Origin: Methanobacteriota archaeon | GTDB lineage: Archaea; Thermoplasmatota; Poseidoniia; Poseidoniales; Thalassarchaeaceae | Length of the DNA: 33,454 bases | Reading direction: 5' to 3' | NCBI GenBank assembly: GCA_002722735.1 | Contig: PBMR01000009.1 | Location: 1-33,454, forward strand | Part shown: piece after piece, positions 13,731-27,961 of the stretch | How positions within the stretch are numbered: the stretch's first letter is position 1 | Layout of the letters: every line of letters begins with the position of its first letter | Translations under genes and position numbers: made by a program | The notes under the pieces: generated by a model | Databases searched by the model: none | What the model saw: only the letters and a program-made list of their open reading frames with translations | Told to the model about the DNA's origin: nothing

Positions 13731-15425
13731 TCAGTTGGTCCTGACTAATTGGTAGTCAGTGAGATTCCTCAGAACGTCTACTGCCTCCGATTCTTCCAAC
13801 TCATCTAGACATCTATGGGCCAGTGCGTGATGTTCCATGGCTCTTCCTTTGGCATAGTCTATCGAACCTGACTCTCGTAGTTCCTCCACGGCTTTGGACA
13901 GGTCTCCATCGTCGCAGTCCCCTCGTCCGAAAACCTTGTTGAAATGAGGCAAATCTTGGTTGCAGCTCATTGCGTGAATTGCAACTAGGGTCTTCTTACC
14001 TTGGACGATATCGGATCCAGATGGCTTTCCCAATGTGCCTGTATCCCCTGTAATGTCAATGAGATCATCCATGAGTTGGAAGCAGAGTCCGAGATTCATC
14101 CCCCATTGTGCCATGTTTTCTACTGTGCCTTGGTCGGCGTTGGCTAGTATTGCTCCGGTCCTCGCGCACGTTTCGAACATCGCACTGGTCTTGCCGGCAA
14201 TCATTGCAATGTACTCATCTTCCGTTACTAGGTCCTTGCTCTCAAATTCCATGTCATCCTGTTGGCCTTCGGCGACTCTCCTAACCATCTCTCCGATGTA
14301 GATGATGAGAAGTCTGAGATTTTCGGCAGGGATATCATTAGAATTTCCTAGAATCTCGAAACCGACAGCGAGCATGGCATCGCCCGCGCATATTGCTGTT
14401 GCATCATCGTAAGCGATATGGACGGCATCCAAGCCCCTGCGAATTGGGTCTTGGTCCATGATGTCGTCATGGATTAGTGTGAAGCTGTGAATGATCTCAA
14501 TCGATGCTCCGAGTGAATAGTGACCATAATTAGCATCCCCTACAGCCTCACCCACCAATCGGGGTAGGATCGCTCTAAGCCTCTTACCTCCTCCTTTGAA
14601 GAGGTGAATCATTGCCCCACGCAAACTCTCCTGAGTCGTCTGACTAAGGCTGGTCATTATCTCATGCTCGACAATTTCCCTATGTGGGGCCATCGCATCG
14701 AGAATATCATGAACGGGCCCGACCGACCGCCCATCCATATCTACCTCTCCGCAGAATTCGATTCCATCGAATGTCGTGTTTACGAGATTTCTGACATCAA
14801 ATCCCTCGGGCCCCATGAAATGATTCCAAATCAGTCTGAACCAGGGAGCCACGATGGCTTCGCTCCATTCCCCTTTGCCATCCATCATCCTCCCAATACT
14901 GTCTCCGTCCATCCAACGGACAGAGGATATCTCATTCTCATTTGGAAAAATATCGGCATCGCCCTCCACGATAAGGACGTGATCGAGCTCCCTCTCGATC
15001 CACTCTGAATCCCACCTGCAAGAATACTCCAATATTCCGATATGGTGGAAATTCCAGCTTTCAGTAGTGCTCAATGGTATTCCGAGTTCGTGTTCTAATT
15101 TCCTCTTTGCAGCGATGATGACGCCACTCTTGGCATCTCCATTCTCGCCCTCTATATCTAGCGGGTGACTGCAGCAAGTGTTACCCCAAACGCCGGGGAA
15201 GGTAATTTTCTCGGACGACCTGCGTTGTACCAGCAAGCGACCCTTGGAATCGAATAGGAGAACACTGAATGCCCTGTGCCTGTGCCCCCTCATGTAATGA
15301 CAGTCCAACTTCGATAGGGACCCCATAACATTGTCCTGCTCATCAACGACAAGGCACTTCTCTCCCATCATCTCGGACTGGGTGTCGTTTTGGCCCTTCA
15401 ACGAAGATGCCCGGTCATGTGTCAT
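13731..15425 (-). CDS. Fusion of type 1 isopentenyl-diphosphate isomerase and geranylgeranyl/polyprenyl diphosphate synthase
   Basis: One 564-residue frame joins two enzymes. Residues about 20-205 are a NUDIX-type IPP isomerase: HRHRAFSVLLFD, NTCCSHPL with the catalytic Cys about residue 85, and ERELDH with the catalytic Glu about 146. Residues about 245-564 are a trans-prenyltransferase: GGGKRLRAILPRL, first aspartate motif DDIMD (320-324), RRG, and second motif DDLID (453-457). Phe315, fifth before the first motif, resembles archaeal GGPP synthases, so a C20 product is likely. Together they would make DMAPP and extend it to the lipid precursor. No stop or frameshift lies between the domains. 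A TATA-like element lies about 32 bases upstream. Confidence 0.92.
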   Translation of the reverse strand: MTHDRASSLKGQNDTQSEMMGEKCLVVDEQDNVMGSLSKLDCHYMRGHRHRAFSVLLFDSKGRLLVQRRSSEKITFPGVWGNTCCSHPLDIEGENGDAKSGVIIAAKRKLEHELGIPLSTTESWNFHHIGILEYSCRWDSEWIERELDHVLIVEGDADIFPNENEISSVRWMDGDSIGRMMDGKGEWSEAIVAPWFRLIWNHFMGPEGFDVRNLVNTTFDGIEFCGEVDMDGRSVGPVHDILDAMAPHREIVEHEIMTSLSQTTQESLRGAMIHLFKGGGKRLRAILPRLVGEAVGDANYGHYSLGASIEIIHSFTLIHDDIMDQDPIRRGLDAVHIAYDDATAICAGDAMLAVGFEILGNSNDIPAENLRLLIIYIGEMVRRVAEGQQDDMEFESKDLVTEDEYIAMIAGKTSAMFETCARTGAILANADQGTVENMAQWGMNLGLCFQLMDDLIDITGDTGTLGKPSGSDIVQGKKTLVAIHAMSCNQDLPHFNKVFGRGDCDDGDLSKAVEELRESGSIDYAKGRAMEHHALAHRCLDELEESEAVDVLRNLTDYQLVRTN

Positions 15426-23275: not shown

Positions 23276-24073
23276 ATGTCTTGGCGACGTGTTCTCGGTA
23301 GGGTCGCGTTCGTCAATTGCGATCCCGTATTTTCATTCTTGGAGGATCGTTGGAATATCCTATCCGCTCCTCCAGCGTGGCTAACTGGTCATTTGCTCAG
23401 GAGGGACTGCCTTACAGCCCCAATTCCTACTTCTGATTACGCACTTCACTCCGATGAACTGCTCTTGGTGCCTGACCTCGGTATCGTCAGCAATGGGCAA
23501 GTTGGATCGGTTCTGCTCTTTGGAAGTAGGCCGATCGAATCCATGAGGGACATCGCTCTGCCCTCGGACTCCTCAACGTCGAAATCCTTGCTGAAATGGA
23601 TTCTCCGTGAAAGAAACTTCGATCCTAAATTTTTGGAGATGGGGCCCGACATAGGGATGATGCTGGGCGATTGCGACGGGGCTTTGCTCATCGGTGATCG
23701 AGCCTTGTCCGCTGCTAGTAGTGACCCTGAACTAGTACAGCTAGATTTAGGGGCCGAATGGACCCAGAAGACGGGGCTTCCCATGGTTTTCGGCGTTTTC
23801 GCTGCCAGAAGGGACTCGCCTGTAGAACTTGTGAGGGAGGCCCATGATGATATGGTCGAACAGTATGTGAAATTCCAGAGGGACTCCAATGTCAGAGATG
23901 CTGTAATCGGTGCAGCGGCCGAGAGCATAGGTTTCTCCAGAGAAAGGATGGATGCCTACTTCGAGCAAGAGGTCAGCAATGTTCTGGATACTAGCAGCAT
24001 CTTGGGCTTGACGCTATTCCTCAACGAGGTTTGTGGGATGAAAGAAGAACCAACCTGGTTCGTTTCAAACTAA
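23276..24073 (+). CDS. mqnA: Chorismate dehydratase MqnA
   Basis: A 265-residue periplasmic-binding-protein-like fold enzyme. RVLGRVAFVNCDPVF at the N-terminus matches the family's .lG.i.y.N..P.f; CLTAPIPTSDYALH, IALPSDSSTS, GALLIGDRAL and GLPMVFGVFAARRD are in the expected order. MqnA dehydrates chorismate to 3-(1-carboxyvinyloxy)benzoate, the committed step of the futalosine pathway. It is probably cotranscribed with mqnE. Its stop overlaps the stop of the convergent HEAT-repeat gene by four bases. Confidence 0.88.
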   Translation: MSWRRVLGRVAFVNCDPVFSFLEDRWNILSAPPAWLTGHLLRRDCLTAPIPTSDYALHSDELLLVPDLGIVSNGQVGSVLLFGSRPIESMRDIALPSDSSTSKSLLKWILRERNFDPKFLEMGPDIGMMLGDCDGALLIGDRALSAASSDPELVQLDLGAEWTQKTGLPMVFGVFAARRDSPVELVREAHDDMVEQYVKFQRDSNVRDAVIGAAAESIGFSRERMDAYFEQEVSNVLDTSSILGLTLFLNEVCGMKEEPTWFVSN

Positions 24074-24549
24074 TCAGAGTAGTCGAGACGATCACTCGAA
24101 ATCCACTCGAGCAGATCTAGGGCAACCTCGCAGGACTCAGCGACGACAACCTCTGGGTCATTCTTGAATGTCTCCAGTGTCGCTAAGGCAACCCTATCCC
24201 CAATCGCACCTAGGGCTTCAGCCGCCTCATGCCTGACTATTGCATCTTCACTTTCGTCCTCAAGCCTCCTCACAAGATGAGGTACTGCATTACTGTCTTG
24301 CATCTGCCCTAAGACGTAGGCAATTTCATGCTTGAGCAATGCAGAGTCAGAATTGAATGCTGCTGCTAGGGAGTCTATGGCGTCTTTTCCACCAATATTC
24401 CTCAAAGCGAACAGGGACCTCATCCTAAGGAACATCCGCTCCTTCTCATCACATAGAGTCGTCCTCAGGGAACTGATGTTTTGGGACTCACTCGGGGGTG
24501 CAGGATCGACTGAGCCGAACTCGCTGATATCTGGTTTCTCGTCGTCCAT
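24070..24549 (-). CDS. HEAT-repeat protein resembling half of deoxyhypusine hydroxylase
   Basis: A 159-residue protein of HEAT helix pairs after a 30-residue N-terminal stretch. Two His-Glu pairs, LLKHEIAYVLGQM (His74-Glu75) and VRHEAAEALGAIGD (His107-Glu108), are 33 residues apart, the spacing of the iron-binding HE pairs in each half of eukaryotic deoxyhypusine hydroxylase. SVDPAPP at residues 13-19 matches, from memory, the linker before the second half of the eukaryotic enzyme, and the end ESCEVALDLLEW also fits. Eukaryotic DOHH (about 300 residues) has two such halves, so this one would have to dimerise. It would hydroxylate deoxyhypusine on IF5A. A generic PBS-lyase-type HEAT protein is the alternative. 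It starts one base after the mqnD stop. Confidence 0.72.
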   Translation of the reverse strand: MDDEKPDISEFGSVDPAPPSESQNISSLRTTLCDEKERMFLRMRSLFALRNIGGKDAIDSLAAAFNSDSALLKHEIAYVLGQMQDSNAVPHLVRRLEDESEDAIVRHEAAEALGAIGDRVALATLETFKNDPEVVVAESCEVALDLLEWISSDRLDYSD

Positions 24550-24550
24550 A

Positions 24551-25411
24551 CTAATCTTCGTGCCCCACAAATTGAATCGCCCCCATATCCATATCTTCCC
24601 TAACGAGCCCGATTTCTTGGCCTTTTTGCAAGAAGAGCCTGACTGCCTCGCGTCCCTCACGTCCGTAATCGATGGTGCGTTCGTTGACGTACATAGACAC
24701 GAACTTCTCGTTGGTGGGCTCATCGATACCCCGCCCCCACCGGCGAGCGAATTCAAGAGCCGCATCTGGGTAGTTCAAGGCGTATTGGATACTAGCCTTG
24801 ACATCCTCTGCTATTTCTCTACAAACCTGCTCTCCCAAGTCTTTCCTGACGACGTTACCACCCAGTGGCAATGGGAGGTCAGTTGCTTGATTCCACCACT
24901 TTCCGAGGTCTAAAACGACATGCCCCCCCTCATCCTCCCACGTTAACTGACCTTCATGGATGATCACTCCGACATCGTGTTTGCCCGAAATAACTCCAGG
25001 AAGAATTTCATCGAATGGTACCTCGACGACACTCACTTCTCCGAAAGCGAGTCTCAGTGCAAGGAAGGCGCTGGTACTGAGGCCGGGAATAGCGATATCC
25101 CTTCCCATGGCCTCTTTCTGGGTCATTGGATTAGTGGAGATAATCATGGGGCCATATCCCTCTCCCATGGAGGCCCCACAGTTCATCAGGGAATATTCGC
25201 TTGAGATCTCTGGAAACGAGTGGATGCTGACTGCGGAGACTTCGTAGTTGCCTTTCAACGCCTCCCGATTCAAGGTGTCGATATCGGCAAGAATATGGGC
25301 GTACGTACGTCCCGGTGTCTCGATTGCCCCTGAAGTGAGCCCATAGAACATGAACGCGTCGTCAGGGTCGGGGGAATGCCCGATTCGCACTAGCAGTGGT
25401 TCGTCTGACAC
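24551..25411 (-). CDS. mqnD: 1,4-dihydroxy-6-naphthoate synthase MqnD
   Basis: A 286-residue protein with the MqnD layout: RIGHSPDPDDAFMFYGL at the N-terminus (family S.CPNDTF.F), DIDTLNREALKGNYEVSAVSIHSFPEI, GYGPMIIS, IAIPGLSTSAFLALRLA, HDVGVIIHEGQLTW and DLPLPLGGNVVRKDLG. MqnD converts cyclic dehypoxanthine futalosine to 1,4-dihydroxy-6-naphthoate. The start GTG 25411 places the conserved first strand at residue 8. It is on the opposite strand from mqnE-mqnA and probably cotranscribed with the HEAT-repeat gene that starts one base downstream. Confidence 0.88.
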   Translation of the reverse strand: MSDEPLLVRIGHSPDPDDAFMFYGLTSGAIETPGRTYAHILADIDTLNREALKGNYEVSAVSIHSFPEISSEYSLMNCGASMGEGYGPMIISTNPMTQKEAMGRDIAIPGLSTSAFLALRLAFGEVSVVEVPFDEILPGVISGKHDVGVIIHEGQLTWEDEGGHVVLDLGKWWNQATDLPLPLGGNVVRKDLGEQVCREIAEDVKASIQYALNYPDAALEFARRWGRGIDEPTNEKFVSMYVNERTIDYGREGREAVRLFLQKGQEIGLVREDMDMGAIQFVGHED

Positions 25412-25730: not shown

Positions 25731-26942
25731 ATGGCAGGTGGGTGGAGCCGCTTCGCGCTGCGCTTCTCTGAGTATTACGCTTCGCTAGGCACCACTACTC
25801 TCTGGACCCCGCCTAGGCTGAGATCAAGGGAGTGGATGTTCGTCCCCTGGGGGGGCGGTCCCCCCGATAGGCACAGGGCCTTCCAAGGCAAGACTGAACT
25901 GCTTTCCTACCTCCAGAATCGCACCCCCCACTCTTGCTTTCACAGTACCGCTTACTACCAGAGACCCTCAAACAGGAAGATGTCAGAGAAGGGTTGGTTG
26001 GGTGCTGACCTCATCTTCGATCTGGATGGGGATCATCTGCCAGGTGTCTCGGATACCGATTTTCCCACCATGATTGATACCATACAGCACCAGGCTTGGA
26101 GGCTATGGTCGGAATTCCTGAAACCAGAGTTGGGTTTCAGGGATGAGTACGTCCAAACAACATTCTCCGGACACAGGGGGTTTCACATTCATGTGAGGGA
26201 TCCGAACCTGCTGCATCTCGATTCCAACGCGAGGAGGGAGATCGTCAATTATATCCGAGGAGAGGGGATCGACGTTCAATCTGCTCTGGCGGGGCCGGAT
26301 ATTAGTTGGGGAAACAGGGCCCGATCAGGAATGGATTCTGTGTTGGAACAGCTTCGAGTCATCTCGGACAAGGGAGCCGATAGAAAAGCCACCCTAGAGA
26401 GGCTCCATGGAATACTGAAGTCGAGGGCTAAATCACCACGGACTCGAGTCAGGTCTACCAGCAAGGCGAGGATTTTGGAACTTGCGGAACTCGCCGAGTC
26501 GACCAAACGAATCGATCGTTTGCGAGGTGATAGAGCGCTATCGGTTTTCGGTGAGTATTGCACGCCGATTTTCTGGGAGTTGGTCAAGGGGGATGCATCA
26601 GTAGTTATGGGTAGTGCTGGGGAAACGGACGAGGCCGTCACAGTGGATACTAAGAGGGTCATCAGGTGGGTTGGTAGCCTACATGGGAAATCTGGCCTTA
26701 GGGTCACCGAGTTCCCTTTGCATAGGCTTGATCCCAGCACTAGCGACAGGTTCGAACCCACAAGGGAGGCCGTTGTTTTCAGCCTGCAGAATAGTATGGC
26801 AGTAACCCTCCTCATTGACGATGTTACTGCAGAACTAGCCGAAGAGAGGATTGAGGGCAATGAGGGGGAGATTTTTGAGGTCAGTGAGGCCATGGCTACC
26901 TTTCTAACTCTGAAGGGTTGGGCGGAAGTAGTGCAGCAATAA
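25731..26942 (+). CDS. priS: DNA primase small (catalytic) subunit PriS
   Basis: From ATG 25731 the protein has 403 residues. The AEP-primase catalytic motif is DLIFDLDGDH (Asp97 and Asp99), followed by FSGHRGFHIHVRD (Ser146, Arg149, His152) and the C-terminal RVIRWVGSLHGKSGLRV with the nucleotide-binding His. REWMFVPWG near residue 33 matches the family's REwgF. PriS makes RNA primers with PriL at replication forks. TTG 25695, directly after the upstream stop, would add 12 residues and cannot be excluded. The large subunit is not in the window. A 241-residue minus-strand frame inside is a shadow. Confidence 0.93.
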   Translation: MAGGWSRFALRFSEYYASLGTTTLWTPPRLRSREWMFVPWGGGPPDRHRAFQGKTELLSYLQNRTPHSCFHSTAYYQRPSNRKMSEKGWLGADLIFDLDGDHLPGVSDTDFPTMIDTIQHQAWRLWSEFLKPELGFRDEYVQTTFSGHRGFHIHVRDPNLLHLDSNARREIVNYIRGEGIDVQSALAGPDISWGNRARSGMDSVLEQLRVISDKGADRKATLERLHGILKSRAKSPRTRVRSTSKARILELAELAESTKRIDRLRGDRALSVFGEYCTPIFWELVKGDASVVMGSAGETDEAVTVDTKRVIRWVGSLHGKSGLRVTEFPLHRLDPSTSDRFEPTREAVVFSLQNSMAVTLLIDDVTAELAEERIEGNEGEIFEVSEAMATFLTLKGWAEVVQQ

Positions 26943-26970
26943 TCGATGCTCGACCTTCCCGCAACCACAG

Positions 26971-26980
26971 AATATTGAAT
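26971..26980 (+). promoter_or_regulatory. Probable TATA box of the EF-hand protein gene
   Basis: AATATTGAAT is centred about 29 bases before ATG 27005, implying a leaderless transcript and supporting 27005 over the in-frame start at 26918 inside priS. Confidence 0.4.
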
Positions 26981-27004
26981 AGTGGAGGACTCCGGAAGCA
27001 TTGC

Positions 27005-27961
27005 ATGGTTGATGCTCTAGACAGCATTGAATTCGATTCTGACGACGACGACTCTACGTTGCCGCCCCAACCTCCCGGATTGGTGTTACCACCTCCGCCA
27101 CTCGACTTTTCCTCACATCCCCCACCCCCTCAGTTTGGTTTTCCACCTGAGTTGGGTGATGATGGTGACCTCCTAGACGCGGCCAACGCTCTGGATAGTC
27201 TTCCCAAGACCAATTTCCAAAGTCCGTCCGCGGACTTCAAGTCTATTTGGGAAAGTAGGAAAGCTTCTGATCCAACTATCGGTACTGGGACCAGGGATGG
27301 AATTTATGGGCAGGTAGATCGTATTGCTTCTGGCAAGCCGGGCAGCCTGATGGACAGGTTCTCAGACCGATTTGGCTCAGATTTGGACAGGGAAATAATC
27401 GTCCTTAGGAAGAAGGAGCAGCAGGATTTGCGTTCCATCAAGCCTACGGTAGAGTTGATCTCCGCTCCTGAAGAGATCAACGAGATGTCCTTCTCCGAAT
27501 TCTTGGAGGCCATGGACGACGGGGAATTTGTCGCCAAGGTTTCTGAAGCAACTGGAATCTCCAGTGAGACCCTGAACGACCTAGACCTAAATTCCCTCAA
27601 GTCATTCTTCGACAAGGCCGACGTAGACGACTCCGGCACGCTAGACTTCGATGAATTTGTCGTTGCCATTCAGAGATTCAGGTCCTCGGATGAGGAATTT
27701 CATCGGTTCTTCGTTGTCATTAACAGCCTCTTGGGTGAGATGCCTGACGATTTTACCAACAGTTTCATCGAGTCGGAGTCATTCAATCTCTTCCAGCAGG
27801 TTGGTAGAGATCCCCAGAAAACGGATGACGAGACCCGTGCCCGATTCTTCGGGATGATTAACGACCTCTTGGGGGACTTGCCCGATGCCATCGTGCATAA
27901 CTTCGTAGAATCCCCTGATTTCGAACTGTACAAAATGGTGGCCGATAGGTATGGTGGTTGA
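27005..27961 (+). CDS. EF-hand protein with proline-rich region and duplicated C-terminal repeat
   Basis: A 318-residue soluble protein. Residues 10-50 are acidic then proline-rich (PPQPPGLVLPPPP). One canonical 12-residue EF-hand loop, DVDDSGTLDFDE (206-217), has all Ca2+ ligands: Asp206, Asp208, Ser210, Thr212 (backbone), Asp214, Glu217. Its partner around 163-180 (FSEFLEAMDDGEF) is degenerate. Two 33-residue repeats follow (234-266 and 280-312) sharing RFF..IN.LLG..PD...F.ES..F.L...V, 16 identical positions. Calcium-dependent protein-protein interaction is plausible; function unknown. The downstream membrane protein begins 3 bases after its stop, so they probably work together. Confidence 0.75.
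   Translation: MVDALDSIEFDSDDDDSTLPPQPPGLVLPPPPLDFSSHPPPPQFGFPPELGDDGDLLDAANALDSLPKTNFQSPSADFKSIWESRKASDPTIGTGTRDGIYGQVDRIASGKPGSLMDRFSDRFGSDLDREIIVLRKKEQQDLRSIKPTVELISAPEEINEMSFSEFLEAMDDGEFVAKVSEATGISSETLNDLDLNSLKSFFDKADVDDSGTLDFDEFVVAIQRFRSSDEEFHRFFVVINSLLGEMPDDFTNSFIESESFNLFQQVGRDPQKTDDETRARFFGMINDLLGDLPDAIVHNFVESPDFELYKMVADRYGG

Follow-up and report, generated by a model that had tools for sequence, protein, structure and literature searches.

A single-half homologue of deoxyhypusine hydroxylase in marine Poseidoniales archaea

The genome of a Thalassarchaeaceae archaeon (order Poseidoniales) encodes a protein of 159 aa that is homologous to the eukaryotic deoxyhypusine hydroxylase (DOHH), has half the architecture that defines this enzyme, and is probably its functional equivalent. 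The gene is located in the window, i.e., the whole stretch of DNA that was analyzed (33,454 nt, contig PBMR01000009.1, assembly GCA_002722735.1), and was identified as a single-half DOHH homologue with four HEAT repeats from its translation, its match to human DOHH, an AlphaFold2 model, and Foldseek searches. We consider it likely that it encodes an archaeal deoxyhypusine hydroxylase, which corresponds to half of the eukaryotic enzyme, is homodimeric and O2-dependent, and acts on aIF5A. Dimerisation, the binding of iron, the hydroxylation step, and the occurrence of hypusine in vivo were inferred.

Gene and genomic context

The DOHH reading frame runs from 24549 to 24070 on the minus strand, stop codon counted, and the plus strand across these positions contains many stops. 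The initial annotation had described here a HEAT protein of 159 residues, having two His-Glu (HE) pairs at 74-75 and 107-108, spaced 33 residues apart, and SVDPAPP ahead of the repeats. The minus-strand translation matched this description, both pairs were invariant in 99 archaeal homologues, and SVDPAP was nearly invariant in them. On the minus strand, the His74-Glu75 codons are at 24325..24330, the His107-Glu108 codons at 24226..24231, the Gly81 codon (His74 + 7 residues) at 24307..24309, and the SVDPAPP leader (residues 13-19) at 24493..24513.

The DOHH start codon (ATG) lies 1 nt past the stop of an MqnA/MqnD-type menaquinone biosynthesis gene, which is directly upstream (24551..25411, minus strand; Pfam VitK2_biosynth, 244 bits; conserved order). 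The two genes are probably co-transcribed, and the upstream gene is a syntenic neighbour outside the hypusine pathway. A second MqnA/MqnD-type gene (23276..24073, plus strand; Pfam, 153 bits; synteny) is convergent with DOHH, and their ends overlap by 4 bases. The related loci came from euryarchaea of Marine Group II (Poseidoniales, with Thalassarchaeaceae among them), and the order mqn - DOHH - primase was fixed throughout Poseidoniales. The dhs and aif5a genes did not adjoin the DOHH gene at the loci tested.

Sequence homology to DOHH

When the window protein was compared with all PDB sequences (phmmer), human DOHH was the top match (260 bits, E 6e-77), and its two halves were matched separately with 126 and 133 bits. 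Human DOHH was also first in PDB for a profile made of 42 archaeal homologues (346 bits; 161 and 183 bits for the halves). In the profile-profile comparison, the human C-half with the linker was aligned over 145 columns at 50% identity. The human sequence used for the alignment, half-identities, tree, and the plasmid and profile comparisons was entered by hand and checked by eye against the phmmer-aligned stretches.

The generic repeat models HEAT_PBS and HEAT_2 were passed by the window protein, and the Pfam matches comprised HEAT repeat models only, probably because Pfam has no DOHH model. The best equivalog-type HEAT model (NCBIfam) was NblB with 40.6 bits, the cut-off of 300 not being met, and the CpcE model gave 27.5 bits against a cut-off of 330, also not met. 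The protein is thus a DOHH homologue and not a generic HEAT protein, and the earlier preference for DOHH over phycobilin lyases and generic HEAT families was borne out (260 bits for human DOHH vs. 41 bits for NblB).

The combination of the HE pairs and SVDPAPP is far above chance. Coincidental HE pairs were ruled out, as was a truncated pseudogene, the 99 archaeal homologues being intact and of equal length. The gene is under purifying selection (dN/dS ~0.07 in a comparison with a congener; dN 0.124, dS 1.81). Searches for relatives of the archaeal protein in viruses, phages, and plasmids gave none, and when plasmids were searched with human DOHH, the only matches were HEAT proteins of ~30% identity from Bacillus and Rhizobium.

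Active-site residues and predicted structure

In the alignment of 99 non-identical archaeal sequences, H74, E75, G81, H107, and E108 were invariant. In human DOHH, iron is anchored by H56, H89, E90, H207, H240, and E241, and the substrate by E57, E90, E208, and E241 together with a pair of glycines, given as G65 and G214 (PMC9117371). His74-Glu75 corresponds to H56-E57 and H207-E208 of the human enzyme (His for iron, Glu for substrate), and His107-Glu108 to H89-E90 and H240-E241 (iron). Gly81 is the counterpart of G214, which binds the substrate side chain; the human glycine at H56 + 7 is G63 in the sequence and matches G214 of the C-half. The DOHH residues matched by the archaeal invariants are those established by mutagenesis (PMC9117371).

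The AlphaFold2 model based on the 42-homologue alignment had four helical hairpins (pLDDT 89, pTM 0.80; without the alignment, pLDDT was 47.5). The best fold match in PDB (Foldseek) was human DOHH, with 0.7 Å over 127 columns for 4d4z_A (TMq 0.79) and a TMq of 0.81 for 4d4z_B, whereas generic alphaRep matches of comparable length mostly lay at about 2.1-2.4 Å. No significant match to the predicted structure was found in BFVD. A standard DOHH chain has two symmetrical halves with eight HEAT hairpins in all; the window protein departs from this layout, with one half and four hairpins.

Distribution, copy number, and decay

All 80 relatives detected in a scan of GTDB contigs were from Marine Group II, and those measured were ~155-165 aa long. 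A search of 390 Thermoplasmatota genomes yielded the DOHH gene in ~96 of 128 Poseidoniales (counted by hand) and, outside this order, in nine genomes of six families (~155-170 aa). The survey was restricted to Thermoplasmatota; Asgard archaea, Thermoproteota, and bacteria were outside the sample. One copy was present in G015, a 2.1-Mb genome in one contig, and only one DOHH match was obtained in the window's own genome (20 contigs, ~80% complete).

In four genomes of Poseidoniales (G092, G106, G203, and G209; loci L136, L137, L138, and L139), the DOHH gene at the conserved locus had decayed, and no sampled genome of the Thalassarchaeaceae genera g4 and g5 yielded an intact copy. In G078, a member of g5, only the first ~25 DOHH residues are left. 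Here, the DOHH leader MSEDKPDTDEFGSVDPAPPS stands at the DOHH locus (L135:602-2155) and is joined in frame to a 490-residue protein that is unrelated to it and has a DUF531 domain. As several Poseidoniales lack DOHH or have a decayed copy, the gene is useful but dispensable; yeast lia1 mutants are also viable (PMC8153317).

Hypusine pathway genes

Deoxyhypusine synthase (DHS) and aIF5A, whose presence in the genome the initial annotation had named as a check on its reading, were both found. The DHS of the window's own genome exceeds the curated DHS equivalog cut-off and carries the catalytic GGGISKHH, and the target lysine of aIF5A is within SKPGKHGSAK. The aIF5A gene was detected with TIGR00037 and missed by PF01287. 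A DHS-family gene was present in 24/24 genomes checked and aIF5A in 29/30.

The same genome has a SpeY-like DHS-family paralogue without the KHH catalytic motif (contig C3, L003:1492-2824, minus strand), which adjoins a SpeD homologue. This arrangement resembles the marine group II SpeDA/SpeY route reported in PMC10407285. The paralogue was ruled out as the real DHS, as it is the other gene that has KHH and passes the DHS equivalog cut-off. In the DOHH-bearing families outside Poseidoniales (L195, L198, L199, and L193), a second type of DHS-family gene was observed, having GGGxPKN instead of GGGISKHH; in G214, a gene of this type was the only DHS-family gene found.

Associations with COX1 and the aIF5A loop

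Outside Poseidoniales, the terminal oxidase gene COX1 was present in 9/9 genomes with DOHH vs. 74/262 of all such genomes (Fisher ~1e-5, from a total that differed slightly and without correction for relatedness). In pattern scans of the 390 genomes and at the aIF5A loci L141-L168 and L133, the target lysine + 3 of aIF5A was Glu (KHGEAK) in 184 genomes, all without DOHH, and in the DOHH genomes where the loop was read, this residue was Ser or Ala. By family (hand count), the residue was other than Glu in 8/8 families with DOHH, and Glu was found in 42/44 families without it (Fisher 6e-8). This value overstates the strength of the association because relatedness was ignored. The exceptions were f17 and f23, DOHH-less families with non-acidic aIF5A loops; the loop association is therefore one-way, and related genomes do not count as independent. 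Together, the COX1 and loop associations point to O2 and aIF5A and provide indirect support for hydroxylation.

Proposed reaction and alternative explanations

In the proposed reaction, canonical DHS would first attach an aminobutyl group to aIF5A, and archaeal DOHH would then hydroxylate the resulting deoxyhypusine. Two copies of the protein would pair face to face, each giving one His/His-Glu set (H74, H107, and E108) and E75, and the homodimer would rebuild the diiron centre for O2 activation, for which eukaryotic DOHH uses two fused halves. Each archaeal chain has two HE pairs, four being reached only in a dimer. Should the diiron site require two halves, as it does in eukaryotes, one half per chain and one gene per genome would imply self-pairing, a step that is inferred. 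Given the single copy in G015 and the one match in the window's own genome, the partner half can only be the protein itself. It is improbable that iron is bound by a monomer or that a different HEAT partner completes the site: the homodimer was not modelled and each half has a complete His, His-Glu set, but no second DOHH-like half was found in the window's genome or G015, and eukaryotic DOHH juxtaposes two such halves.

Homodimeric deoxyhypusine hydroxylation by the archaeal protein was also weighed against a different use of the fold. A diiron or mono-iron oxygenase of the DOHH fold could act on another substrate, such as another protein lysine or a polyamine, and there is no direct evidence of the substrate, the gene is unlinked to dhs and aif5a, and it apparently shares an operon with a menaquinone gene. 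We regard this as quite unlikely: the substrate-binding E75, E108, and G81 show the same invariance as the iron ligands, the protein is ~50% identical to human DOHH, for which a single substrate is known, and both DHS and the aIF5A lysine are present, along with the aIF5A loop association. A generic HEAT or PBS-lyase-like scaffold without iron chemistry is hardly credible, even if Pfam names nothing beyond HEAT repeat models; it was ruled out by the invariant HE pairs, the DOHH score set against that of the best equivalog-type HEAT model, and the structural fit (0.7 Å to DOHH vs. ~2.2 Å for alphaRep).

Origin of the single half

For the origin of the protein, the initial annotation had offered either an ancestral half preceding the duplication or a truncated acquisition from a eukaryote. 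The evidence leans towards a linker motif older than the duplication, and a late eukaryote-derived truncation remains possible. In the latter case, the C-half and linker of a eukaryotic DOHH gene would have been gained late and kept truncated, possibly with the same function. For each of the 42 archaeal sequences compared, identity was higher with the human C-half (mean 48%) than with the N-half (mean 42%), and the SVDPAPP linker is common to the archaeal proteins and the human C-half, as such a gain would have it. Late acquisition is nevertheless the less favoured origin, and somewhat unlikely: the single-half form occurs across eight Thermoplasmatota families, whose groups diverge deeply (~39-58% identity to the window protein for members of other families), the locus is fixed across Poseidoniales, and identity between the human N- and C-halves is just 39%, which fits an archaeal half close to the pre-duplication state.

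SVDPAPP, in full or in a recognisable version, is present in the archaeal halves examined. An origin of the motif before the duplication is favoured because these halves have it, are vertically inherited phylum-wide, and are nearer to each human half than the human halves are to each other. As far as sequence identities can tell, a single-half ancestor with the motif retained in the C-half is plausible but unproven, and the tree was not decisive: it had long branches and one eukaryotic species, and the human halves were not placed. With these limits and no other phyla sampled, the direction of descent is not fixed. Only tentatively can the archaeal single-half DOHH be seen as a homodimeric hydroxylase that has kept the ancestral form, the two-half enzyme of eukaryotes having arisen from this form through duplication and fusion. 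If so, hypusine would be an archaeal trait of aerobic lineages, and the aIF5A loop would have adapted to the hydroxylase by losing the acidic residue at lysine + 3.

Comparison with known systems

DOHH has been regarded as confined to eukaryotes, although hypusine has been known from some archaea for decades. No archaeal DOHH orthologue was known according to papers from 2012-2021 (PMC3306375, PMC5178350, PMC6105217, PMC7773846, PMC8153317), and archaeal DOHH was not found reported in the open-access literature to August 2026; subscription papers and preprints were outside the scope of this search, and a prior report is possible. The closest known system is eukaryotic DOHH (human, PDB 4D4Z; yeast Lia1), with which the archaeal protein shares ~50% identity (human C-half), the four-hairpin unit, the HE pairs with their spacing, SVDPAPP, and the place of the second step after DHS. 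It differs in that the eukaryotic enzyme consists of two fused halves (~300 aa, four HE pairs), whereas the archaeal one has 159 aa and two HE pairs and must dimerise for a full site, its activity being inferred. The PBS-lyase HEAT proteins (NblB, CpcE/CpcF, and YibA) belong to the same HEAT-repeat superfamily, but score no more than 41 bits and fit the structure less well.

The aIF5A of Sulfolobus solfataricus is hypusinated (PMC6105217). Its pathway likewise has canonical DHS and aIF5A, but the hydroxylase is unknown and no DOHH homologue has been reported there, so archaeal DOHH leaves hypusine in Sulfolobus unexplained. In bacteria, YfcM hydroxylates the modified lysine of EF-P, the orthologous factor, and is described as having a non-canonical hydroxylase structure (PMC4231759); it resembles DOHH in the kind of target. 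With a conserved candidate in very common marine archaea, the question of archaeal hypusine becomes testable with a protein of 159 aa. The single-half DOHH would also be a minimal and symmetric form of an unusual diiron oxygenase, and it could help to date the duplication behind the eukaryotic enzyme.

Other genes in the window

A protein of 564 aa encoded at 13731-15425 (minus strand) combines a NUDIX domain, which looks like type I isopentenyl diphosphate isomerase, with a polyprenyl diphosphate synthase. The archaeal protein encoded at 26918-27961 (plus strand) has an EF-hand-like motif, for which the Pfam match is weak; the position of its gene beside primase is conserved across the order Poseidoniales.
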